IMG/VR virus record: IMGVR_UViG_3300001450_000258
Location: 1-20,802 of that record
From: a virus
Length of the DNA: 20,802 nucleotides
Strand: one strand, 5' to 3'
Made by a program: the position numbers and the translations under genes. A model generated the notes under the pieces. It was not told the origin of the DNA, ran no database searches, and saw nothing but the letters and a program-made list of their open reading frames with translations. Of the stretch, positions 3,730 to 19,282 are shown piece by piece (the stretch's first letter is position 1; each line of letters begins with the position of its first letter).

Positions 3730-4950
3730 TCATTGAAGGTCAATTATCTTGCCTTGTCCTCTAAAGTAAGTACATACAGTTTCAGCAACAGTTCGGTAAA
3801 GTCCACGATGTCCTAGTTTTCCATGTCCGAATACATCAGCATTAATTCCACCTTCAAAGTATTCAGTAGGCTTAAGTGTGCAAAGGAACAAATGGTCAGT
3901 ATCTAGAATTAGCATATCTGAAAGTCCTGCGCCACCATTTGGCATATCCTTAACTGGGATAATAGGAATATCGTGATATGTTGCAACACGGAATCCCATT
4001 TCTCGGCCAGAAACTCCCTTAATTCCCGAATGGGAAGGAACTACTTCTGTACGACCCATGAATCTTTCCTGTGCTTGAAGCAATTCTCCCAAAGTTTGAA
4101 TTGTATCATATCCAGTTAGAATAACCTTAGGGTCTCCGCCTCTTGCCATCAAACTGCGAAGTGCAGTATTTAGCAAATTAACTGTTAGGTTTCGGTCTGT
4201 TCCAGAATTAGAATCAACGTAAGATTCTAGGTATTCTGTTCCAGAAGATGCCCGTGTTTGTCCATACAAATCATTCTTATTTGCATAGTTACCCATAGCA
4301 TTTGTTTCAGCGTGTGTTGCGATAATCTTATACAAAGGTGTAAGAATATCATCTGCACCACTAAATCCAGAATGGTCAAGACCCTTACCCGCTACATCAG
4401 TCAAATCTTGCAATACCATAGCATTCATAACTTCTGCGTGTGTAATACCTACTTCTTCACGGTAATTAGAAATAAGGTCTCCAATACCATCATCAAGACC
4501 TGCCATCATTTGTGCGATTTCAGAAATCTCAAAAGTATGTGCAATTGTCTTAGGTGTTACAGTTAGAGTTGTGTAATCTGGCTTAACGTTAGTAATGCTA
4601 GAAAGTGCTGCGTTTTCAGCAGTACCGCCCAAATCATCAGCGTCAGAAACAGAGAAAGTATCTCCATTACCACCAATTGCTCGGCTCTTTAGCATTCTCC
4701 AACCGCTAGACTTCCAAGGTTTCTTAGGAAGCATTGAAAGTGCATTAATTTCACGGTTAATCATTGACCAAACTTTTTGCCCATATACAATATTGTATAG
4801 TTCAGTTGTTTGTAAATCTCCAGAAGCACCAGTTGAATAGTGCCGACCTTCAATACCTGAAGTTACGCCTGTTGATTTCAAAATGTTGTCGCTTCCTATA
4901 CCATAGGTCGCTCGCTCTAAGTCTCCGATTGTCTTAAAATATCCACTCAT
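3730..4950 (-). CDS. HK97-fold major capsid protein (406 aa)
   Basis: The protein forms the icosahedral shell. Evidence is its place immediately after the protease/scaffold gene, its length, which is typical of HK97-type capsids, and its layout. The N-terminal region (about 1-60) could be a delta-like or N-arm segment. A region at about 70-170 contains INALSMLPKKPWKSSGWRML, followed by the beta-rich P-domain-like DYTTLTVTPKTIAHTFEIS. A long helix follows, and a C-terminal A-domain has GDPKVILTGYDTIQTL, IPIIPVKDMP and LILDTDHLFLCTLKPTEYFEGG. The ribosome site GGGGGG lies in the last codons of the protease gene. I see no transmembrane segment or cross-linking signature that I can assign. Confidence in the class is high; the exact family is not assigned. 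Confidence 0.9.
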   Translation of the reverse strand: MSGYFKTIGDLERATYGIGSDNILKSTGVTSGIEGRHYSTGASGDLQTTELYNIVYGQKVWSMINREINALSMLPKKPWKSSGWRMLKSRAIGGNGDTFSVSDADDLGGTAENAALSSITNVKPDYTTLTVTPKTIAHTFEISEIAQMMAGLDDGIGDLISNYREEVGITHAEVMNAMVLQDLTDVAGKGLDHSGFSGADDILTPLYKIIATHAETNAMGNYANKNDLYGQTRASSGTEYLESYVDSNSGTDRNLTVNLLNTALRSLMARGGDPKVILTGYDTIQTLGELLQAQERFMGRTEVVPSHSGIKGVSGREMGFRVATYHDIPIIPVKDMPNGGAGLSDMLILDTDHLFLCTLKPTEYFEGGINADVFGHGKLGHRGLYRTVAETVCTYFRGQGKIIDLQ

Positions 4951-4951
4951 A

Positions 4952-5530
4952 TTAGTTGCCCCCCTTTACACGGGAAAATTCTGCATGGGCTTCATCCCAT
5001 GACATATTAGCAATATCACCAATTGTTACGGTGCTTGCTTCTGTTTGTTGTGCCTTAGTAATAACATCACTTTCTAGAGACTTCTTAAGTTCTGAAAGTT
5101 CTGATGCCAAAGTACCAATTGCTGATTGTGCATCAAACTTAGCCTTAGCAGACTCAGCCTTTTCCACAACAAGTTCTTCTTGATAGCGAGATTCAAATTG
5201 GTGCTTAATTACCTCATATGCTCTCTCTTCTTCTTTTTCAGCCTTGAATGCTTCATATGCCTTTTCAATGTTACTTTGTGAAAGGTCAAGTGTTGTTACT
5301 TCATTTGCTTTCTTTTCAAAGTTATAATCGCCCATTTCGACGGTCTTTTCATCTTCATCATAATCAGCCTTTGTTGCTTCTTCTTCAACATCCTCCATTT
5401 GGATGTCGGCTTCTTCCTCAGGCATTGAATCCATAGTTTCCAGTTCTTCACCTTCTTCTTTTAGGATTGTGTCCTTAAGTTCTGCCATTACTTCGTTAAA
5501 CTCATTTAGTGCTTTTTCTATTTCGCTCAT
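4952..5530 (-). CDS. Nested scaffold protein from an internal start (192 aa)
   Basis: An in-frame ATG at codon 180 of the protease gene is preceded by AAAGGAGGA (5546-5538), one of the best ribosome sites in the window, seven bases away. It sits exactly where the protease domain ends and the acidic helical part begins (MSEIEKALNEFNEVMAEL). A separate scaffold made in excess from the same frame is the arrangement of lambda C/Nu3. Translation from this site is inferred, not shown. Confidence 0.6.
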   Translation of the reverse strand: MSEIEKALNEFNEVMAELKDTILKEEGEELETMDSMPEEEADIQMEDVEEEATKADYDEDEKTVEMGDYNFEKKANEVTTLDLSQSNIEKAYEAFKAEKEEERAYEVIKHQFESRYQEELVVEKAESAKAKFDAQSAIGTLASELSELKKSLESDVITKAQQTEASTVTIGDIANMSWDEAHAEFSRVKGGN

Positions 5531-6067
5531 ATTTTTGTCCTCCTTTACAATATTAAATTTGGCTTCGGGATTAATCCCTTCCTCACAAATGGTGATTTCA
5601 TGCAATTCAAGTTTATCAATTTCTTTATATGTTCCTGCATCGGAATCATACTTATTTGTCTTGTTTATCGCTTGTCCACCTATCGAGAAAGAACGAAGTT
5701 TGCCACGACGAATATCCCTCGCCACATCTTTCGCTTTCTCTATATCATTTCTTAATTTTATCACTACAAAAAAACCTGTATCATCAACGCCTGTTTTTAG
5801 GACTTTCCCATTGGAATCTGTATATTGGTCTACTACTTCTCCGACCTGCACATTGGAATGTGTAATCATTACATTCCTATATCTATCGTGCTTCATAAAT
5901 TTATCAGCGGCTTCTTTAATTGCCCCTAATGTAATCTTATCATTTTGCTTATCTACAACATCAACAGATGCGTAACCTGCAATTACTGTATTGTCATCCT
6001 CTTTTAGAATAACGAGTTCTCCACCACTATGAATATCATCTCCGAACATCGGTGTCATTAACTGCAT
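4952..6067 (-). CDS. Prohead protease (XkdF-like) fused to scaffold (371 aa)
   Basis: Residues 20-175 are a herpes/HK97-type serine maturation protease of the XkdF/S78 group. They contain AGYASVDVVDKQNDKI, the His motif NVMITHSN (H70), RGKLRSFSIGG with the likely nucleophile S128, and a later ELHEITICEEGINPEAKF typical of the domain end. Residues 180-371 are acidic and strongly helical (many Glu/Lys/Ala), as expected of a scaffold that is digested on maturation. There is no good ribosome site before ATG 6067, unlike all neighbours, but a TATA-like box lies about 27 bases upstream. A second start with a strong ribosome site lies inside at 5530. The downstream neighbour is the capsid gene. The protease cleaves scaffold, capsid and itself; this role is from family knowledge. 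Confidence 0.9.
   Translation of the reverse strand: MQLMTPMFGDDIHSGGELVILKEDDNTVIAGYASVDVVDKQNDKITLGAIKEAADKFMKHDRYRNVMITHSNVQVGEVVDQYTDSNGKVLKTGVDDTGFFVVIKLRNDIEKAKDVARDIRRGKLRSFSIGGQAINKTNKYDSDAGTYKEIDKLELHEITICEEGINPEAKFNIVKEDKNMSEIEKALNEFNEVMAELKDTILKEEGEELETMDSMPEEEADIQMEDVEEEATKADYDEDEKTVEMGDYNFEKKANEVTTLDLSQSNIEKAYEAFKAEKEEERAYEVIKHQFESRYQEELVVEKAESAKAKFDAQSAIGTLASELSELKKSLESDVITKAQQTEASTVTIGDIANMSWDEAHAEFSRVKGGN
5538..5546 (-). promoter_or_regulatory. Internal Shine-Dalgarno AAAGGAGGA for nested scaffold
   Basis: AAAGGAGGA on the minus strand lies seven bases before an in-frame ATG at 5530 within the protease/scaffold gene. It is stronger than anything before the full-length start, and marks the domain boundary. 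Confidence 0.65.
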
Positions 6068-6116: not shown

Positions 6117-8204
6117 TCATTTCTTACTATAAATATCTATTTTTCCATCATCTGATGTTTCGGGTGTAGGTTTATTTTCATAACCAGTCCATGCTAAGAA
6201 CATCTCTTTACCATCAACGGGTAAATATCTAACATGGAGTTTAGAAATAATGTCCTCCCCCTTTATGATATACTCATGGTAATCATCTCTTTGTGCGCCT
6301 AGAATTAAGTTACCTTTATCTAAAAGTATCTTTTGTTCCAATTCCTTAGTAGCAACAGCGGGATATTTACCTGCCTCACCCAGTAGGTCATACACTTCTT
6401 CGTCTGAATTAGTGTCAATCTTCCAAATCATTTTATCATCCTTATACTCAATAACAAAGTACAAGTTTCTATCTTGATTAGCCCACAATTGAAATTTACC
6501 ATTCTTCTCTATTGATTTAGCGAGGGTATCTGTATCGTATGAAAACTTATTACCAACAAAAGTAATACCGTAGGCTTTACCTCCCTTTTTAAGTTTGTTT
6601 CTCATCTGTTTTAAACCATCTTTACTTCCAAATAACCTATTCATCATATTACTGTCATGCTTTACAGCCTGTCTAAATATCTGCTCATCGCTTAATTGTT
6701 GATTTCCGTCTAATAACTGTTGTACATAGACATAGAATTCACCACTATCTTTACCATAGGCGGCCTTCAACTGCTTCTCCCACATTCTTTTATTTATTAG
6801 TGCATTTTTAGACATTAGGTTTTTATCCTTAAAGCCGTGAAATATAAATCCTTCTAATTCTAATCCTGTGTCGAATTTAGCAACGCCATGAATATTATCT
6901 GTAACTGTGTAGGACTTTGTAAGTGCATCTACTGTGTAGTCTCCTAAACTTTTCTTACCATCTTTGGTTAAAAATTCTAAAGTAATTAATTTTTCTGGTT
7001 CAGCCGCTTCAGGAATCTCATGAAATTTTGTATTGAAAAGAGAAAAGCCCTTCTTAGGATTACCCATTATTTCATCTGCCTTTACTCTTATCACTTTACC
7101 AACTTCAATTTCCTCTTTAGTATTAGTAGTCTTACCTAAATTCATATAGAATTTACCCTCAAGTTCAAAAGCCTTAGGGGTATCTTCTTCAACTGGTCCG
7201 ACCCCAATTGTATAACTAAAGGTGTCGTTTTTATTCTGTTTAACATCTAATACCATTACATCGAGGTCTACAAATTTCTTCCACTTAACCCACTTAGGGT
7301 TTTTCTTTTTACCAATTATATAAGATGACTTAGAATCCTTAATTACCACGCCTTCTGATGTGGGGTTATTCATAATCTCCATAGCATACTCTTCAATCTC
7401 TTTCATTGAATCGGCTTCCCGTGTGTTTTTCTTATTAGGGAACATCACTCTTTCATCCGAATGTGCTGAAAAATTACTAACTAGGGTTTCCATTCTGTCT
7501 TCCAGTTTTTCCATAGCAATAGATTCATCTTCAAAATACATGATGTCAAAAATGTGTAATTTAATATCGCCCTCAGATTCAACCTTTTTATTAATAAAGG
7601 CAAGAGTATCTGCTCTAACTAAAGGTTCATCACCATTGTATAGAACTGCCTCTCCATCTAAAATACAATTAGGGAAGGTTCTCTCTTCTAAAACCTTAAC
7701 ACACTTTTCAAATTTATCGGTAATGTCTCTTCCATTGAAACTGTAAATACTAACCTTATTATCAAATTTATGAACTTGAACTCTTAGACCATCATACTTT
7801 TCTTGAACAAAAAATTCCCCAGTAAATCCATTAATTTCCTTCATATCCTCTATATCAAAAATACGATACATTGGTTTGTTAGGCTCTATGAACTTTTCTG
7901 GCTTATCCTGTTTTACTATTTCTGCGGGACTCCCCTCATTCATAAATTGTTCATACAAATGTTGCCCCTGTTCCATAGTATTATATGAATCGTTGGAGTA
8001 TAGTAGACTCGTATCAATGTTAGGGAACCTTTCTTTAATTCCAGGTTCTTCTAACATTACTCTCAATTCATCTACTAAAGTTTTCCAGTCTTCTTCGTAA
8101 GCCTTAGGGTTATCTCTAGCACTTAGAAAGGTTGCTCTAACCATATTTCTTAAAGAAGAAACATTTTTATTAATGCTATCAAAGGGTATATCAAAAGGAT
8201 TCAA
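6117..8204 (-). CDS. ATP-dependent DNA ligase with long C-terminal extension (695 aa)
   Basis: The enzyme seals nicks in DNA using ATP through a lysyl-AMP intermediate. The nucleotidyltransferase core runs from about 115 to 310: motif I EKYDGLR with K136 as adenylation site, SFNGRDIT at 155-162, motif III LDGEAV, LHIFDIMYF, motif IV EGVVIKD and motif V KWVKWKK. An OB-like domain follows to about 400. Residues 1-110 are too short for the usual DNA-binding domain of archaeal/eukaryotic LigI. Residues 405-695 are an extra region I cannot name, with GFIFHGF, YHEYIIKGED and a terminal HVRYLPVDGKEMFLAWTGYE. The start is TTG with AGGTGATTAA just before it. The placement between small coiled-coil genes and the protease is unusual, since ligases normally sit with replication genes. 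It may act on packaged or incoming DNA; that is speculation. Confidence 0.9.
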   Translation of the reverse strand: MNPFDIPFDSINKNVSSLRNMVRATFLSARDNPKAYEEDWKTLVDELRVMLEEPGIKERFPNIDTSLLYSNDSYNTMEQGQHLYEQFMNEGSPAEIVKQDKPEKFIEPNKPMYRIFDIEDMKEINGFTGEFFVQEKYDGLRVQVHKFDNKVSIYSFNGRDITDKFEKCVKVLEERTFPNCILDGEAVLYNGDEPLVRADTLAFINKKVESEGDIKLHIFDIMYFEDESIAMEKLEDRMETLVSNFSAHSDERVMFPNKKNTREADSMKEIEEYAMEIMNNPTSEGVVIKDSKSSYIIGKKKNPKWVKWKKFVDLDVMVLDVKQNKNDTFSYTIGVGPVEEDTPKAFELEGKFYMNLGKTTNTKEEIEVGKVIRVKADEIMGNPKKGFSLFNTKFHEIPEAAEPEKLITLEFLTKDGKKSLGDYTVDALTKSYTVTDNIHGVAKFDTGLELEGFIFHGFKDKNLMSKNALINKRMWEKQLKAAYGKDSGEFYVYVQQLLDGNQQLSDEQIFRQAVKHDSNMMNRLFGSKDGLKQMRNKLKKGGKAYGITFVGNKFSYDTDTLAKSIEKNGKFQLWANQDRNLYFVIEYKDDKMIWKIDTNSDEEVYDLLGEAGKYPAVATKELEQKILLDKGNLILGAQRDDYHEYIIKGEDIISKLHVRYLPVDGKEMFLAWTGYENKPTPETSDDGKIDIYSKK

Positions 8205-8212
8205 TTAATCAC

Positions 8213-8689
8213 CTATGAATCTAGTGGTGGTCTAACTCTATTTGCTTCTGAATCTGTAACTTGTAGTGTTGATTTCTTTTTCCTCAAAAGGGCAAGTACA
8301 GTTTCCAATGCTAGTTCTAATTGCTTTTCTTGAGAATCTTCGGCAGGTTCATCATCTTCAATATTGGCTGGCATTTCTGATTCACCCATTGAAGGTTTAT
8401 CTTCTCTAGGTTCTGTATCTTCTTCTTCAAATCTAGGTTCTTTGTATAATAGACCTTCTGGCATTAGTTTCTTACTTCCTCTTGGACTCTTAGCAATAGA
8501 TGGGCTAGAACTAGTGTTCTTAGCCGCCAACTTAGTAACATCTATAACCTTAGGTTTAATAGGCTTGTAGGTCTTAACCTCAGCCTTAAAGTCTTCTGAA
8601 CCTAATGCGTTATTAATAACAGTCTCAAGTTCTTGCAATCTAGTTTTTAATTCAGCGTATAGGCTAAATTCTGATTTTTCGTCGTTCAT
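8213..8689 (-). CDS. Small coiled-coil and linker protein, unknown (158 aa)
   Basis: The function is not recognised. Residues 1-35 form a likely coiled coil (ELKTRLQELETVINNAL). Residues 36-120 are low-complexity and probably disordered, first basic with Pro/Ser/Lys (AKSPRGSKKLMPEG), then acidic (EEEDTEPREDKPSMGES). Residues 121-150 form another helix ending in RKKKS. The start ATG overlaps the stop of the upstream gene in ATGA, with GGAGGG inside that gene. Translational coupling with the 75-aa gene suggests that the two act together. It could be an internal head or adaptor protein; there is no direct evidence. Confidence 0.8.
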   Translation of the reverse strand: MNDEKSEFSLYAELKTRLQELETVINNALGSEDFKAEVKTYKPIKPKVIDVTKLAAKNTSSSPSIAKSPRGSKKLMPEGLLYKEPRFEEEDTEPREDKPSMGESEMPANIEDDEPAEDSQEKQLELALETVLALLRKKKSTLQVTDSEANRVRPPLDS

Positions 8690-13600: not shown

Positions 13601-13752
13601 GTAGTTGTCTTTATATCACTTGAACCCCTCAAGCCTTCTCTTTTTATATAAAAGTGTATTGCCTTATTTGATTGTTCTGAAATTCCCTGTTGAAAAATAG
13701 TTTTCCATTCCTCTAAGGTTGGTCTAATAATACTCTTCTCAATCTCTGCCAC
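10657..13752 (-). CDS. Very large protein of unknown function after the portal (1031 aa)
   Basis: The start is GTG with AAAGGAGGG before it, overlapping the portal gene by 14 bases. No family is recognised. Visible features include a helical N-terminus (1-110), then alternating beta-like and helical stretches with many Asn, Tyr and Lys. A Gly/Arg/Thr-rich stretch at 341-368 and a strongly basic patch at 503-526 (TKRRGRRMVVKK) could touch nucleic acid. Residues 625-710 look beta-rich with hydrophobic strands (GVLVFCYFF). The end, about 880-1031, is Gly/Ser/Arg-rich with NRIFFQRYGRMPTGRDTD. There is no Walker motif, metal-binding cluster, signal peptide or membrane helix that I can identify. 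Size and place suggest a structural or injected protein, or a MuF-type head protein too diverged to recognise. Confidence 0.88.
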   Translation of the reverse strand: MAEIEKSIIRPTLEEWKTIFQQGISEQSNKAIHFYIKREGLRGSSDIKTTTSLLYEVYEALIREKGGTNVDETLRNLRVEEVVNPLRNLGFNSSKEAKWVIDAIKNPKLDKVMLYVDANNEIERLDFVVSGGLNNVVQHPVIYNNSKGRISFDSRRNYKINNSRDVIVDDLEDEYINIFDFDNTHREKVSYIMAHSYSIDPSTMETLNFKTNFLPTKEAITNNTSDINTLQEFNNFYIIKPKALNKLLSGKKVKPVIIEDIDEINIHRERINYKGINYVQGETMLESVDEKNYNTPLLNLVNQPLESIPNYFKEDIYQDKLNEVLTPDSVKKITSRLQYEVRLQGRQTREGRGEGKYTGDKPTERNTPQLGFTLYHIKNHFIYFPKMKEELPLYIVAFYKKKYPYGDETWEPTDRHMLFYSDSEVNMYLGERMVSNKDWIKVSKNITRDTVNGLVSYLESLKVSYRVKGQLDLSKFTPEVQDKINNNIKDIVENSMFGFLSQTKRRGRRMVVKKNLLKSASDIKRVGDEIVRSKFGPLKEFKDLNEDEILTFESKFRNEPYGQEYLFGNTEFNLEYIFEPLPKNLVTNNLAKTSNSDKTSILSKIENLDGDIFQYFSISSKVKSSKGEIGMGVLVFCYFFKDNKLDKIEAVVASISRYSSESSKGKNTISVAKKEISIEYPFDDMGVFMYEIVTGSKYSIMMRATQGGEASFINSPPRRASTMFETVLQDSRRFGQIIVDKMQYNDLRNQHIGYIAGRNNYNAMYYYLYSDSDYYGGSEEGQLCIGKIDLVYKRALEDLGDRRSDFADFTASPNLEPHPTLQSFKDAYSVGIVATERGSCLQGKDIPKGDNTAFQALWYVLGGIDYDNSFSYRNIKDNKERAGMREGLPTDAMAEGFTTDDGRRIPPMSGQNTYRDADRLRTHLSLVKKYGQEFLNWTDSLVKKVLEAGEIKIGGKNISSGTSSGANFNEFNPNSAWAHKAKIRQSSVDIRENMGRIPEANRIFFQRYGRMPTGRDTDVVQGIEQELSRGE
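11901..11920. repeat. 10-bp perfect tandem duplication (TTGAAAAATA x2)
   Basis: Two exact adjacent copies lie inside the 1031-aa gene, coding for the segment around IFQYFSIS. The unit is not a multiple of three but the frame is intact, so it is either old or chance in AT-rich coding DNA. Confidence 0.6.
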
Positions 13753-15376
13753 TTCTAACCCTCCTTTCTGTTCGTCTGTCTACGTTATTATTAGCCGCCT
13801 CTTTAGGTAAACCGCTAAATCTCTTAGGTGGTCCAACTGACATCTTTTCTGTTTCACCAGCAACTTGTTGTTTACTACTGCCAGACATTAAAGCCTGTTC
13901 CTGTAATTGTCCTAATTGGGAGGCATCAATATTAGTACCTGCATATTTATCAACAGGTATTTGTCCCTCTATATCAACCTTAGTAGATTCTTCACTAGGG
14001 AATTTCTTATAGATAAAGTCTCCATCTTCGTTCATATCAACATCGAATCCTAAATTTTTCATTTGTACTGCTAGGGTAATTTCAATTTCCCTTCTCCTTA
14101 ATTGTGCGGTCATATCTTCTTCCTCAGACCTCAACAATTGAACTTTCCAGTCTTCAATTCCAAACTGTCTCATTAAGAAGGGGAACAGGTATTTATTATA
14201 AACATTTTGCCCCATCTCAACACTTCTGTTGGTAACTAAAATTTGTAGACCTTCATTATTAAGACCTCCAGCAGTAGTAGTGTCATTTTGGAAAATTTTA
14301 CTTACTCCATAAAAAGCACATATTCTATCTCTAAGGTCGTCTTTAACAGCAACATAATCCATTTCCTTTAACGTATTCATAAAAGGAATCCATTGTACAG
14401 AACCTCCAGAACCTCCCCCGTCATTTTCAATACCCATAATAGGTATGTAGTGTGGGTCTCTTTCTAACTTTTCCTTAACTCCCTTCCAATACTTAACTAA
14501 TGACTCCATGTTATTAGTCTGTACCGCTAGAATACCTCTTGGGGTTCTAGCCTTTTGATAAGATGTACTAATGTAACCTTCCATAGAGGCTAGGGTAAAT
14601 ATCTGACTATATAGAGTTACTACAGGAGGGTGGCCGTATAATCTACTTGGGCTATATTTACTAAAGTGAATTACCTCACCTGTAATATAATGTTGCTCAC
14701 CATCCTGTGTTTTATTTGTAAATTCAATTGCACTTAACAATGAATTACATTCGGGACATTTATCATGCTTTTCTTCACTAACGAAATCTCTATGAGTTAC
14801 ACAAGTATATCTATAATGTCCTCTATCCCCATCCTCATCAACCTCAATGAATAGCGTAGTGGGGTCGCCCCGATATAATTCATTTACTCTACTCATAACC
14901 ACGCATCCATCATCATCAAGATAATAGTCCTTTACTAGAATTAAATAAGCATCATCCATAATATTCAGGTCTGTTTCTAGTTCTTTTAAAACATCAATGA
15001 ATAGTTGGTGTGAACTGTTTATGTAATCTTTGAAAAATGATTCTGCATATTGTCGTTGTTCAGGGTTAGGAGTTCTAAGGTTGGTTGATTCACAAGCCAT
15101 ACATTCATTGACGTGTTTCTGGTGTTCATACCCACAATCCATGCACTTAAAATCAAAAGCCTTGACCCATTCATATCCTCTACGGAAAATTTCAGTCTTA
15201 AGTTGTACTAAACATGACCTAACAATTGTGGAGTTTTTAGCCAAATCATATAGATATTGCCCTGCTATATGTTGTGGGAACCTTCTCTCTTGTATACCCA
15301 TATTGTATACTTCTTTCTCCTTAGGAGTAGGTGTTTGTCGTCTAATTAAGTTTTTTAATCTGTCTCTTATTCCCAT
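13739..15376 (-). CDS. Portal protein with two zinc-knuckle insertions (545 aa)
   Basis: The portal forms the dodecameric ring at the vertex through which DNA enters and leaves the head. Typical portal segments are present: IVRSCLVQLKTEIFRRGYEW near the N-terminus, LETDLNIMDDAYLILVKDY at 133-151, the GEVIHFSKYSP stretch followed by GHPPVVTLYSQIF (wing/clip), and the DYVAVKDDLRDRICAFYGVSKIFQ region with VTNRSVEMGQNVYNKYLFP (stem and crown helices). Two inserts carry probable zinc sites: C78, C81, C92, C95, and C192, H195, C207, C210. The C-terminus (about 480-545) is Gln/Ser/Arg-rich and flexible. It lies downstream of the terminase as usual, separated from it by the homing endonuclease gene. 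The ribosome site is AAAGGAGG. The zinc sites are read from pattern, not from a structure. Confidence 0.9.
   Translation of the reverse strand: MGIRDRLKNLIRRQTPTPKEKEVYNMGIQERRFPQHIAGQYLYDLAKNSTIVRSCLVQLKTEIFRRGYEWVKAFDFKCMDCGYEHQKHVNECMACESTNLRTPNPEQRQYAESFFKDYINSSHQLFIDVLKELETDLNIMDDAYLILVKDYYLDDDGCVVMSRVNELYRGDPTTLFIEVDEDGDRGHYRYTCVTHRDFVSEEKHDKCPECNSLLSAIEFTNKTQDGEQHYITGEVIHFSKYSPSRLYGHPPVVTLYSQIFTLASMEGYISTSYQKARTPRGILAVQTNNMESLVKYWKGVKEKLERDPHYIPIMGIENDGGGSGGSVQWIPFMNTLKEMDYVAVKDDLRDRICAFYGVSKIFQNDTTTAGGLNNEGLQILVTNRSVEMGQNVYNKYLFPFLMRQFGIEDWKVQLLRSEEEDMTAQLRRREIEITLAVQMKNLGFDVDMNEDGDFIYKKFPSEESTKVDIEGQIPVDKYAGTNIDASQLGQLQEQALMSGSSKQQVAGETEKMSVGPPKRFSGLPKEAANNNVDRRTERRVRSGRD
14747..14803 (-). 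other. Second zinc-knuckle coding segment of the portal
   Basis: This codes for residues 192-210 of the portal, with C192, H195, C207 and C210 in a C-x2-H-x11-C-x2-C arrangement. It lies within the wing-like region. Confidence 0.6.
15092..15145 (-). other. First zinc-ribbon coding segment of the portal
   Basis: This codes for residues 78-95 of the portal, with two CxxC pairs (C78/C81 and C92/C95) ten residues apart, a short zinc-ribbon-like pattern. Confidence 0.68.
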
Positions 15377-15378
15377 AT

Positions 15379-16737
15379 TTATTCCTCCTTTACAATCGAG
15401 TCGATTTCATCCATTAAATTCATTTTATTATTATTTTTATATTTATTAATATCATCTTCATTAATGTCGTACTTTTCAAATTCTCTAGCACCTTGATACC
15501 TTGAGTCCTTCCAGTTTTCCCATTTTATTAGTTTGAAAATTTCCTTTACTCTGGGTTTTGCCCACTCTTCTTTTTTAAATCTCTTCTTAATTCTGATGGC
15601 TTCTCTAATCAACTTACCTTGTGCTTTTTTCATCCGCAGGTGAGGTATACACTTGTCCAATATTTTAGTGATGTCGTCTTGACTATAAAAGTTTAGCCTA
15701 TGCTGACTTCTGTTATTTTCACCCACCTTCTGGTCTAAATGAAGGCGACCACATTTAAGTTCACGTTCAAGTTCTTTAAAGAAAGCCCTGCCTCTATTAC
15801 CAGTAGCAATCATGCCTACTCTTGGTGAGAAGTTAGAGTCCATTGTAATATAACCATCGGAGTCAATGAATCCTGCTACATACGAATACAAGTCTTTCTT
15901 TATTTCATCGCCTATAATATAATACTCTCCATTTACATTAGTAGCATCAATTCTCTTTAACATCTTAGATATTGTTTGAGGAGTAGTAGAACGGTGATAA
16001 GATTTAGGTAAAAGAGAATGAACTGCGTTTGAAGTAAGACCTGGATTATTACACACTAGGTTTTTAATTAGTTTATCCAAAACAGACTGTCTTGATTTCC
16101 TAATTGATTGGTGTGAAATTTCCTTTAGTATCTTTCTAATTTCTTTCTTATTTTGTTTTAATGCTTTACAGCAGTTAAAATATTCATTACCATAGTCTAA
16201 CTTATTCCTATTGAGATTAGATTCCCACATCTTACAAAGTTTATCAATAACCCTTTTTCTAGTTTCTCCATCCTTAATGTAGTGGAATTTTTTAATTGCT
16301 GAAAGGTCGGGTATGAGAAGTTTAACTGCGTTTTTGTAAGGTCTAATCCAATAAACAGAGTCAATGGACTTGTTAATATGTTCAGTATATGCACCTATCA
16401 TAGTGTCAATAGTTTTGCTCATTTTATCCCTTGAGTTTCCCTTGAGTTTCCTTCTAATCATTCTCATTTCTTTAATTAGGTTGGGGATATTTTTACCATC
16501 AACAATAGGTTCTTCGGGTAACTTGCCTAGCATATCTCTAGCATCTGAAAGATTCATTGAGTAAATTTTAGAAATGTCCTTAATGATTTCAGTTTCATCA
16601 GATGTCTGATATTGAACCCACTTTGCCAATTCCTGTGTAATTTTATCTTTAGTCTCGGCTTGTCTAGCCTTTTCCTGTTCCAACATAGCCATTAATTTTT
16701 CTGTATCTAGTTCTTCTTCTTTACATATTAATTCCAA
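15379..16737 (-). CDS. Free-standing LAGLIDADG homing endonuclease with winged-helix-like region (452 aa)
   Basis: The LAGLIDADG motif is VAGFIDSDGYI (residues 287-297), with the catalytic acid in the FIDSDG core. A single-motif domain of about 100 residues (283-383) is followed by a basic tail, so it probably works as a dimer that cuts a long DNA site. About 215-280 resembles a winged helix-turn-helix (SVLDKLIKNLVCNNPGLTSN, then STTPQTISKMLKRID and a wing ending GEYYII). Residues 1-95 are acidic; about 95-215 is basic and helical. I chose TTG 16737 as start: GGAGGTGG lies five bases upstream, whereas the earlier ATG codons have no ribosome site and overlap the terminase gene more. No intein splice residues are seen. 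It lies between terminase and portal genes, and its target may be a homologous site in related viruses. Confidence 0.85.
   Translation of the reverse strand: MELICKEEELDTEKLMAMLEQEKARQAETKDKITQELAKWVQYQTSDETEIIKDISKIYSMNLSDARDMLGKLPEEPIVDGKNIPNLIKEMRMIRRKLKGNSRDKMSKTIDTMIGAYTEHINKSIDSVYWIRPYKNAVKLLIPDLSAIKKFHYIKDGETRKRVIDKLCKMWESNLNRNKLDYGNEYFNCCKALKQNKKEIRKILKEISHQSIRKSRQSVLDKLIKNLVCNNPGLTSNAVHSLLPKSYHRSTTPQTISKMLKRIDATNVNGEYYIIGDEIKKDLYSYVAGFIDSDGYITMDSNFSPRVGMIATGNRGRAFFKELERELKCGRLHLDQKVGENNRSQHRLNFYSQDDITKILDKCIPHLRMKKAQGKLIREAIRIKKRFKKEEWAKPRVKEIFKLIKWENWKDSRYQGAREFEKYDINEDDINKYKNNNKMNLMDEIDSIVKEE
16428..16449. repeat. 11-bp perfect tandem duplication (CCCTTGAGTTT x2)
   Basis: Two exact copies lie inside the homing endonuclease gene, coding for KLKGNSRDK at about residues 98-106, which is the border between its acidic N-terminal part and its basic middle part. 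The 11-base unit changes frame, so gain or loss of a copy would join or split frames here. Confidence 0.75.
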
Positions 16738-18136
16738 ATATTCCACCTCCAAAATCATTCTTTGGGTTTCCAAACAAGGCCGACCCATCTATATCCACAA
16801 AGGAGTCATTAAAAGACTTTGTGGCGTAATTTGCCAATGCTAGAGCAATAACTGTATCATCATGTGCGCCAAGACCTTCAATTCTCCCCTTTGAACTTAT
16901 ACCAAATGCCTCAAGTTCCATAGCAATTGCATTTGTTACTGCCCTCGCTTGGTCATCTGCATATGGGAGAATAATTTTACCATTTTCAAAATTCATTTGT
17001 AGATTAAGGATAATCTCTTCCTTCTTCTTTCTACTCATTGTAAATTCCTTTACTGGGAAGTCTGATATATCTTTTAATTCCATAGAGAAAGACTTGGCAA
17101 ATGTATTAGTTTCAATCATTACTATTTCTGGCTTGAACCTTTCACATAAATCACTTATGCGGGTGATATGGCTTCTGAAATCAATGTTCTTCTCTCTCAC
17201 CATATGTACGACTTTCTTATTCATATCCTCATCAACCTCTATAACTATCATTACGGTATAGTCTCCATCGGCTGATAATGAGGGGTCATATCCAATATAA
17301 TATTTGAAAGCCTCTGTGTTACCATGCCATAGAAGTTTACTAGTTCTGTCCTTAGATTTATCAACGTGTTCCTTACCAAATAACATAGTGTTAGAAGATA
17401 TAGGAATGCAAAGGTATTCTCTTGTAAATTTAGATGACCCAATTTCATTCCTTCTTCTCTCAAGTGATTCTAAATCCCAACGAGAAGGCCATAGTGCATC
17501 CCCAGTTTGTGATATGGCGGGGTATCTCTTTACGTCATATTCTGAGTTTTCCTCTAATTCAGAAAATATATCTGTATATGTGAAGGGTGTACCAATCATT
17601 CTAAGTGAAGATGTGTGGTGTAGAGTAGGAATCATGTCTCCCCAAAACCAGTCTGTAACTTTTTGAATAGCGGTTAGGCTAAATTCTTTCATAGGGTCGT
17701 CTACAATAATTTCATTAGGGTGAAGGCCACGAATTTGTGAACCTACTGAACGTTCTAATATTCTGTTACCGTTGGTTAATTCCATTCTTCCTACTGCCCA
17801 ACCAGTTTTAGGTTTAAACTTTCTTAAAGCGGGAACGGTGTCAAACATTCTATCTATGTCTTTCATGTGTACTAAAGTCTGTTTTTGATTAGAAGAAATG
17901 TAAATAATTTCATATGGGGCAGGTTGAAAAATTAATTGAAATACGCACCATGAATGGAAGAATACGGACTTTCCGTGGTCTCTTGAACAAATGGTAACTG
18001 TACGTTGTGAACCTTGAACTCTTTCTAACCATTCACGGTGAAAGTCTGCCATTTCAAAACCGAGAACATTAGTGAAGAAATATTCAAAATTGCCTTCTGA
18101 GGCTTTCATATCCATTTCAATTAGTAAGTCCATCAT
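16721..18136 (-). CDS. terL: Terminase large subunit, ATPase and nuclease (471 aa)
   Basis: This is the packaging motor that cuts concatemeric DNA and pumps it into the head through the portal. The ATPase domain has Walker A CSRDHGKS (50-57), Walker B IIVDDP (143-148) and the coupling motif RMIGTPF (179-185). The RNase H-like nuclease domain has its acids at D284 (GYDPSLSADGDYT), E342 (IVMIETN) and D426/D427 (GAHDDTVIALALA). The protein looks complete and has no intein. The C-terminus is a Gly-rich tail (FGGGIFGINM). The start is ATG 18136, overlapping the preceding stop as ATGA, with CAGGAGGAAG just upstream. The end overlaps the endonuclease gene by 17 bases. The upstream 244-aa and 137-aa proteins are candidates for the small subunit. 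Confidence 0.95.
   Translation of the reverse strand: MMDLLIEMDMKASEGNFEYFFTNVLGFEMADFHREWLERVQGSQRTVTICSRDHGKSVFFHSWCVFQLIFQPAPYEIIYISSNQKQTLVHMKDIDRMFDTVPALRKFKPKTGWAVGRMELTNGNRILERSVGSQIRGLHPNEIIVDDPMKEFSLTAIQKVTDWFWGDMIPTLHHTSSLRMIGTPFTYTDIFSELEENSEYDVKRYPAISQTGDALWPSRWDLESLERRRNEIGSSKFTREYLCIPISSNTMLFGKEHVDKSKDRTSKLLWHGNTEAFKYYIGYDPSLSADGDYTVMIVIEVDEDMNKKVVHMVREKNIDFRSHITRISDLCERFKPEIVMIETNTFAKSFSMELKDISDFPVKEFTMSRKKKEEIILNLQMNFENGKIILPYADDQARAVTNAIAMELEAFGISSKGRIEGLGAHDDTVIALALANYATKSFNDSFVDIDGSALFGNPKNDFGGGIFGINM
16743..16750 (-). promoter_or_regulatory. Shine-Dalgarno GGAGGTGG setting the TTG start of the endonuclease
   Basis: GGAGGTGG on the minus strand lies inside the end of the terminase gene, five bases before TTG at 16737-16735. 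It argues against the upstream ATG codons at 16788 and 16758. Confidence 0.7.
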
Positions 18137-18867
18137 TCTTCCTCCTGATGTTCTGGTGAATAAAATGTAGGTAGATTGCTATTCCTCCTAATTCTTCCAT
18201 CCATTCTTTTGTGAAATTTTAACAATTCTACATTATTTTCTCGTCTAAATCTTGTTGCCATCCTACTATGATATTTTCCTTTATCTTCTCTAGACATACT
18301 ATCATATTCTTCTTTAGTATAAGTTACACCATAGGCAGTTTCACCGCCTAACTCTGGAGTAGGATAAGTGGGTAAATTTGATTTGTTTCTCAATCTAGAA
18401 AGCATTCTTCCGTGAAATGCCTTATCATCAGTTAGTTCTCCCTTACCATAGTTTGCTTTCTCAGCATGATACTTTATTTTTTGTCCCGCATCTAATTTTT
18501 GGTATTCTTCTAATGTTAAATAGGGGCGAAGATTTCTAAGACCTCTAGGAGTTGTTGGTAGTTTAACTTCTTTTCGTTGTTCTTCTAATTCTGGAGAAAA
18601 ATAGTCTGGTTTGTTAATTTTACGTTTAAGTCTTGTATGTTGTCTTCCATGAAAATTTCTGATTTCTTGCAATTCTCTCATGTCTTCTTCTAAAGGAATG
18701 TTAGGGCTAGTTTCACCAACATTTCCTATCGAATTTCTTAATGCTATCAAACGCCTTTGATAAACGGCCTGTTTTGCACTATGATAGTTTTGCCTCTCTT
18801 CAGGGCTAGCATTGGTATAATCAGCCAATGTTTCAATCTTTCTCTTCAACACATTTTGCCAATCCAT
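18133..18867 (-). CDS. Basic protein of three two-part repeats, next to terminase; unknown (244 aa)
   Basis: No known family is recognised. The protein consists of three A-B units. The A part has EEY or a similar start, a D/E-rich turn and a conserved YH followed by basic residues (about 15-40, 120-140, 186-209; e.g. EEYDSMSREDKGKYHSRM). The B part begins with FH and runs FHxRxxxRxRxxxNLPxYxxPE (72-94, 151-173, 218-240). Each unit thus has two conserved histidines and many Arg/Lys, which suggests nucleic-acid binding. The start ATG has GTGAGGG upstream, inside the previous gene. It is coupled to the terminase gene by ATGA, where a small terminase subunit gene would be expected. That role is a guess; an RNA- or DNA-binding adaptor is equally possible. 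Confidence 0.85.
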   Translation of the reverse strand: MDWQNVLKRKIETLADYTNASPEERQNYHSAKQAVYQRRLIALRNSIGNVGETSPNIPLEEDMRELQEIRNFHGRQHTRLKRKINKPDYFSPELEEQRKEVKLPTTPRGLRNLRPYLTLEEYQKLDAGQKIKYHAEKANYGKGELTDDKAFHGRMLSRLRNKSNLPTYPTPELGGETAYGVTYTKEEYDSMSREDKGKYHSRMATRFRRENNVELLKFHKRMDGRIRRNSNLPTFYSPEHQEEE

Positions 18868-18868
18868 T

Positions 18869-19282
18869 TCAATCCCTCACAAATTCATCCCAATCTTTAT
18901 TGTCCAATCTCGTAAACGTACTCAATTCTTTATTACGGGCTGAAAAACCCAATTGTTTTTGAGAAACTTTGTAATATATATCGTCAAGTTCTTCATGAAT
19001 CATATATTTATCTTCTTGCAAAACAAGTGGACCTTCATCGAAAATCTCACTATTAATAAAAACATCTTGAGGATTATTTCTATCAAATCGGTGAGGTATG
19101 TCATAGTAGTCGGCTAAAGTAAGGGTAATTTCAACACCCGCCATTATTCTAGACATAAACTCAGGGTTTTCAAATGCAGATTCTGGAATTGGTTCACTCA
19201 AACTATCACGCAAAGTTTCTAACGGTCTTCTAGGGATTAGAATTGGGTTTGCTAAATTTTTAAGAACACGTTCCCACTTCAT
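18869..19282 (-). CDS. Unknown protein upstream of the terminase (137 aa)
   Basis: The function is not recognised. The N-terminus is basic and Leu/Pro-rich (ANPILIPRRPLETL), about 40-90 contains GVEITLTLADYYDIPHRF, and the C-terminal part is mixed helix ending in DNKDWDEFVRD. The start ATG overlaps the preceding stop as ATGA, with AGGGGG before it. It is one of two candidates for a small terminase subunit by position only. Confidence 0.8.
   Translation of the reverse strand: MKWERVLKNLANPILIPRRPLETLRDSLSEPIPESAFENPEFMSRIMAGVEITLTLADYYDIPHRFDRNNPQDVFINSEIFDEGPLVLQEDKYMIHEELDDIYYKVSQKQLGFSARNKELSTFTRLDNKDWDEFVRD

Follow-up and report, generated by a model that had tools for sequence, protein, structure and literature searches.

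A conserved DNA ligase gene between the portal and prohead protease genes of viruses with magrovirus-type gene content

The ligase locus in the head-gene block

The window analysed here is a stretch of 20,802 nucleotides from a 25,305-base virus record (IMG/VR record IMGVR_UViG_3300001450_000258). The ligase gene starts 8 bases after an open reading frame of 158 amino acids to which no function is assigned, and it ends 49 bases before the gene for the S78 prohead protease; the gene for the major capsid protein comes next. The portal and large terminase genes are located upstream of the ligase on the same strand. The features of the locus and of the encoded protein are listed in the table. The relatives of the window are marine contigs of 85-98 kb whose gene content agrees with that reported for magroviruses (PMC12999244, PMC10768690), which are tailed viruses infecting Poseidoniales, archaea that abound in the ocean. 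From gene content and literature, rather than from a comparison with reference sequences, we infer that the window and its relatives are magroviruses. To our knowledge no magrovirus has been cultured so far. In the sea the group is one of the most abundant kinds of virus (PMC10160649); a magrovirus contig with a ligase adjoining the prohead protease is mentioned in passing in PMC7318539.

Table. Positions of genes, protein domains and motifs in the window (all on the minus strand; residue numbers refer to the ligase).
Feature	Position	Strand	Evidence or remark
Major capsid protein gene	3730-4950	-	Pfam and PHROG
S78 prohead protease gene	4952-6067	-	Immediately downstream of the ligase; Pfam and PHROG
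DNA ligase gene	6117-8204	-	ATP-dependent, head-module; 695 aa; TTG start; stop codon 6117-6119
Residues 567-678, LigD 3'-phosphoesterase-like beta-barrel	6171-6506	-	No His-His-Asp metal triad
Residues 481-561, winged-helix domain	6522-6764	-	Z 8.9 (cullin WHB), Z about 7 (IclR/TtgV wHTH)
Residues 405-480, conserved beta-strand linker (TD-x2-HG ... LM-x-KNA)	6765-6992	-	D436, H439, G440, L463, M464, K466 and A468 invariant
Residues 312-404, OB-fold domain	6993-7271	-	No recognisable motif VI (R-x-D-K); R373-V-K375-x-D377-E378 is invariant in its place
Residues 98-311, adenylyltransferase (NTase) domain	7272-7913	-	Pfam match (residues 125-309, E 2.8e-31); structure match
Motif I, K136-Y-D-G, adenylated lysine	7788-7799	-	Sequence; K136, D138 and G139 invariant in 41 relatives
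Residues 1-97, N-terminal helical region with conserved [YF]LSA motif	7914-8204	-	AF2 model; alignments
158-aa ORF directly upstream of the ligase	8213-8689	-	No function assigned
Portal protein gene with Cys-pair (zinc-ribbon-like) insert	13739-15376	-	Pfam and PHROG
LAGLIDADG-type ORF	15379-16788	-	Between terminase and portal
Large terminase gene	16721-18136	-	Pfam and PHROG
Tagged ORF	18133-18867	-	Variant of the N-terminal tag
Tagged ORF	18869-19282	-	Variant of the N-terminal tag

Among the 80 loci retrieved via the ligase, every contig of sufficient length has terminase, LAGLIDADG ORF, portal, ligase, protease and capsid protein in this succession. The profile search for the ligase/protease pair in other viruses, which an earlier note on this DNA had suggested, found the protease as the next gene in all 161 ligase-baited loci with room for it, a number in which some contigs are counted twice because the fetches overlap. 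When the portal served as an independent bait and only loci with at least 7.5 kb downstream were counted, 66 of 66 had both ligase and protease. No head-type ligase gene was located in a replication block among the relatives, the arrangement that the earlier note had named as speaking against its reading. Used alone, the C-terminal region of the ligase matches at least 539 stretches of the viral collection. The feature is real and conserved, and the data support a fixed place of the ligase in the head module, outside the replication block; the description in the earlier note of a gene lying between portal and protease, coupled to virion genes rather than to replication genes, holds across the relatives. 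A search of cellular genomes for the full ligase architecture, made with narrow patterns, returned five contigs, all of which look like magrovirus sequences placed in bacterial MAGs. These contigs (L087-L091) carry magrovirus head genes and are filed under Maricaulis and Altibacter, apparently binning errors. The nearest phage ligase matches inspected (Rhizobium, Bradyrhizobium) are located near integrase genes and not near head genes.

Other genes of the block are conserved as well. The Cys pairs of the portal insert are invariant in all 13 aligned portals. The LAGLIDADG-type ORF separates terminase from portal in 43 of 43 ligase-baited and 55 of 55 portal-baited testable loci, and its motif [AG]FIDSDG[YF]IT is kept in the sequences inspected. 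Since no testable locus lacks the ORF at this position, insertion of a homing endonuclease was set aside as an explanation; the ORF is a fixed gene of the packaging module rather than a sporadic homing endonuclease. In HVTV-1 the slot between terminase and portal is occupied by an HNH endonuclease.

Many short ORFs of the head block share an N-terminal tag, M-[ST]-W-x-x-[IV]-L-K, which starts 177 of 1,845 distinct ORFs (0.15 expected from shuffles) and none of 151 ORFs in four replication-block loci. Tagged ORFs are found mostly around the stretch from terminase to capsid, and the two in the window carry the variants MDWQNVLK and MKWERVLK, respectively. The tag is possibly a signal for head targeting or protease processing. 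The N-termini of the relatives' capsid proteins and proteases have recurrent motifs ([IL][LI]K and [IV][LI]K, respectively) that resemble the end of this tag and could mark protease cleavage sites.

Catalytic core and flanking domains of the ligase

The catalytic core of the protein is that of a DNA ligase. PHROG_114 (DNA ligase) is matched with an E-value of 4.8e-26, and a PDB sequence search with the window ligase found archaeal and human DNA ligases. In the AF2 model (mean pLDDT 80) residues 98-418 align with DNA ligases at a Z of about 24 (human Lig1, Pyrococcus ligase), an alignment that spans both the NTase and the OB-fold domain. Residues K136, D138, G139, R141, E185, F219, D220, E284, K289, K307 and K309 are invariant among 41 non-redundant relatives. 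The NTase/OB core and motifs I, III, IV and V are common to the window ligase, the DNA ligase I-type enzymes (Pyrococcus, Archaeoglobus, human Lig1) and the replicative ligase of magroviruses. Unlike these other enzymes, the window ligase has no detected DNA-binding domain and no recognisable motif VI, carries an added winged helix and barrel, and is encoded in the head block.

Motif VI (R-x-D-K), typical of the classical members, is present in 0 of 41 head ligases versus 16 of 16 replicative ligases; in this part of the OB domain R373, K375, D377 and E378 are invariant. Its absence weakens the claim of activity, not the assignment of the fold. To the earlier note the enzyme had looked active on account of the motif I lysine and motifs III to V; these are indeed invariant in the 41 relatives, but motif VI is missing from every one of them. 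Self-adenylation is therefore not assured, and to judge from the motifs ligase activity is likely, not certain. The missing motif VI also raises the question whether the NTase core serves RNA ligation, capping or protein nucleotidyl transfer instead of DNA sealing, with the OB domain altered accordingly. All 41 members have weak matches to the Pfam family RNA_ligase and 21 of the 41 to mRNA_cap_enzyme, as might be expected for such a role. The match to the Pfam family DNA_ligase_A_M is far stronger, however (E 2.8e-31 versus 5.5e-5), and the structure aligns best to DNA ligases across NTase and OB domain, which makes a role other than DNA sealing highly improbable.

The N-terminal region is about 130 amino acids longer in most relatives than in the window, which encodes a short form; the start codons of the relatives' ligases (TTG, GTG or ATG) are found in the same region as the TTG of the window. 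None of the 41 members has a Pfam match to the ligase DNA-binding domain (PF04675), and the Pfam signature for the ligase C-terminal domain is likewise absent from them. Comparison of the N-terminus of the long forms with the DNA-binding domain of the replicative ligases by hhalign gave a probability of 0.4%, and a DNA-binding domain in the long forms was rejected at the profile level. In the structure comparison a few N-terminal helices align with the end of the Lig1 DNA-binding domain. Ligases with about 200 extra C-terminal residues or with an insert before the catalytic core were also observed (L007:927-3653, L100; L032, L036, L017).

The extra C-terminal region of about 290 residues pointed out in the earlier note is real: residues 405-695 are conserved in every relative and have no match in Pfam, PHROG or PDB sequences. 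Predicted alone from 56 sequences, this region was modelled with a mean pLDDT of 82. By sequence the region is not a routine ligase domain. The structure prediction and fold search proposed for it showed a DNA-repair fold, consisting of the winged helix and the LigD phosphoesterase-like barrel. For residues 567-678 the six best PDB matches in Foldseek are all LigD phosphoesterases (E 5e-3 to 4e-2, probability 0.99-1.00), and VIA yielded Z values of 10.9 and 10.7 against archaeal LigD phosphoesterases. The barrel thus shares its fold with the LigD 3'-phosphoesterase family (Korarchaeum, Methanosarcina, Pseudomonas LigD PE). Sequence profile comparison with the LigD phosphoesterase gave a probability of 0.5%, which is not significant, and homology at the sequence level was rejected. 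Because the Foldseek E-values are modest and the profile comparison is not significant, the modelled resemblance is to be taken as a fold assignment and not as proven homology.

The manganese ligands of the LigD phosphoesterase are His42, His48 and Asp50 (PMC8656161). The corresponding pattern, H-x5-H-x-D, is found in the barrel region of none of the 56 members, and W594, K613, Y642-H-E-Y645, H657 and R659, among others, are invariant instead. Since the metal residues are absent, the second catalytic domain that the earlier note had considered for residues 405-695 is unlikely, and this candidate was rejected. The barrel is probably a module that binds DNA ends rather than a second enzyme; for the C-terminal region as a whole, a DNA- or protein-binding module is the most economical reading.

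A LigD phosphoesterase fold adjoining a ligase core is what an end-joining enzyme would have: its barrel would process 3' ends, and its ligase would join double-strand breaks or close the genome into a circle. The combination of DNA-end processing and ligation is known from LigD (PMC8656161). Several observations make this improbable for the head ligase. The metal triad is missing in 56 of 56 members, the ligase domain precedes the barrel, unlike in LigD, and there is no polymerase domain. A viral Ku gene (PF02735) was not found in 16 magrovirus records. The core is also closer by profile score to the replicative ligase (hhalign, 255 columns, E 4.5e-21) than to the LigD ligase domain (189 columns, E 5.7e-14).

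A second, canonical ligase in the relatives

Searching the whole records of the relatives with PF01068 identified a second ligase of about 500 residues, which is encoded far from the head block and near a gene for an RFC-like clamp loader. This canonical ligase has the Pfam DNA-binding, NTase and C-terminal (OB) domains. Of 25 magrovirus records that measure 84 kb or more, 24 carry both kinds of ligase, which supports that the head-module ligase is distinct from the canonical replicative ligase of most relatives. One record of 184,733 bases (G106), double the magrovirus length, contains four ligases, two of each kind, and is a concatemer, a chimera or two joined genomes.

The exception among the 25 records is G099 (88,181 bases), which belongs to the short-form clade of the window. 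The 99 bases at either end of this record agree with each other at 98 positions, and the genome is therefore probably complete. The canonical ligase is missing from it and no NAD-dependent ligase was found, the replication block being otherwise syntenic with the others. In G016, the ligase of which is 87% identical to that of the window, no ligase other than the head-block one was found within 64 kb, a stretch that includes PolB and RFC. On this sequence evidence, viruses of the clade of the window probably have no ligase but the head-block one, and this enzyme may therefore have a role in replication there.

These two genomes, in which the head-block enzyme is the only ATP- or NAD-dependent ligase found beside a syntenic replication block, also fit an ordinary replication or repair ligase that is merely transcribed with the head genes and has no physical tie to the virion. 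The canonical catalytic core would agree with that, as would the absence of the head-block tag from the protein. Such an enzyme does not explain why most relatives already have a canonical ligase beside the clamp loader and yet all keep the head-block one in place, nor the extra conserved domains and the missing Pfam signatures for the DNA-binding and C-terminal domains. We consider it unlikely, though a serious contender.

A possible role in packaging or entry

The gene is kept at one place among the late head genes and its product is distinct from the replicative ligase, which suggests that the viral genome is sealed at packaging, in the virion or at entry. A head-module DNA ligase of a second type in magroviruses, which acts late in this way, is the best explanation in our view, and we give it about even odds. 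The ligase would be made late, together with the head proteins, and its N- and C-terminal domains would hold it near the packaging complex or procapsid and attach to DNA ends or breaks but leave them uncut. It would then seal nicks in the genome during packaging, or later in the virion and immediately upon entry. In the clade of the window, where no other viral ligase was found, the same enzyme may also serve replication.

It is plausible that the ligase is packaged in the virion, as the earlier note had proposed. A more far-reaching version, in which the packaged ligase enters with the genome, binds its ends via the dead barrel and the winged helix and seals or circularises it before viral genes are expressed, is tentative and rather doubtful. 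The tag M-S-W-x-x-I-L-K of the head block is absent from the ligase, which counts against physical packaging, and gene position alone is no proof of a physical association with the virion.

Other viruses offer parallels to such a role. The ligase of phage T4 is the general replication ligase of that phage and lacks the extra domains of the window ligase. This viral ligase (gp30) has been reported to be needed for encapsidation of T4 DNA, as cited in PMC10893049. The African swine fever virus (ASFV) ligase NP419L, to which the window ligase aligns with a Z of about 21, has been reported as a late protein that resides in the virion nucleoid (PMC12172490). It comes from an unrelated type of virus and has other accessory domains than the window ligase, for which late expression and a place in the virion would be predictions. 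The cultivated relatives HVTV-1 and HCTV-1, which are haloarchaeal viruses, encode a zeta-kinase protein just upstream of the protease region; in HVTV-1 this protein has an ADP-ribosyltransferase (ART) domain. The zeta-kinase proteins are 1,210-1,313 amino acids long and are encoded between head-assembly genes and the maturation protease (L174:8623-12564 in HVTV-1, L175:6929-10561 in HCTV-1). Enzymes of the zeta/ART type have elsewhere been predicted to be packaged and injected (PMC5512222). The window ligase resembles MuF-linked or polyvalent proteins and the HVTV-1 zeta/ART proteins in that an enzyme gene is located between portal and prohead protease. No MuF domain was found in those proteins of the window that were scanned with Pfam. 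The zeta/ART proteins of HVTV-1 and HCTV-1 were rejected as homologues of the ligase, as they gave no matches with the HMMs of the ligase or of its C-terminal region, and no shared domain is detectable. By analogy, T4, ASFV and the HVTV-1/HCTV-1 pair lend support to a sealing role.

If the ligase does travel in the virion, a tailed archaeal virus would bring a ligase into the cell along with its genome. The LigD phosphoesterase fold has apparently been re-used beside a ligase with its metal site gone. A universal head-module ligase, which is kept even where the replicative ligase is lost, points to a step of DNA sealing, in virion assembly or genome entry, which is at present annotated as replication. 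This makes the ligase a concrete test protein for the handling of nicks and ends during packaging in archaeal tailed viruses.
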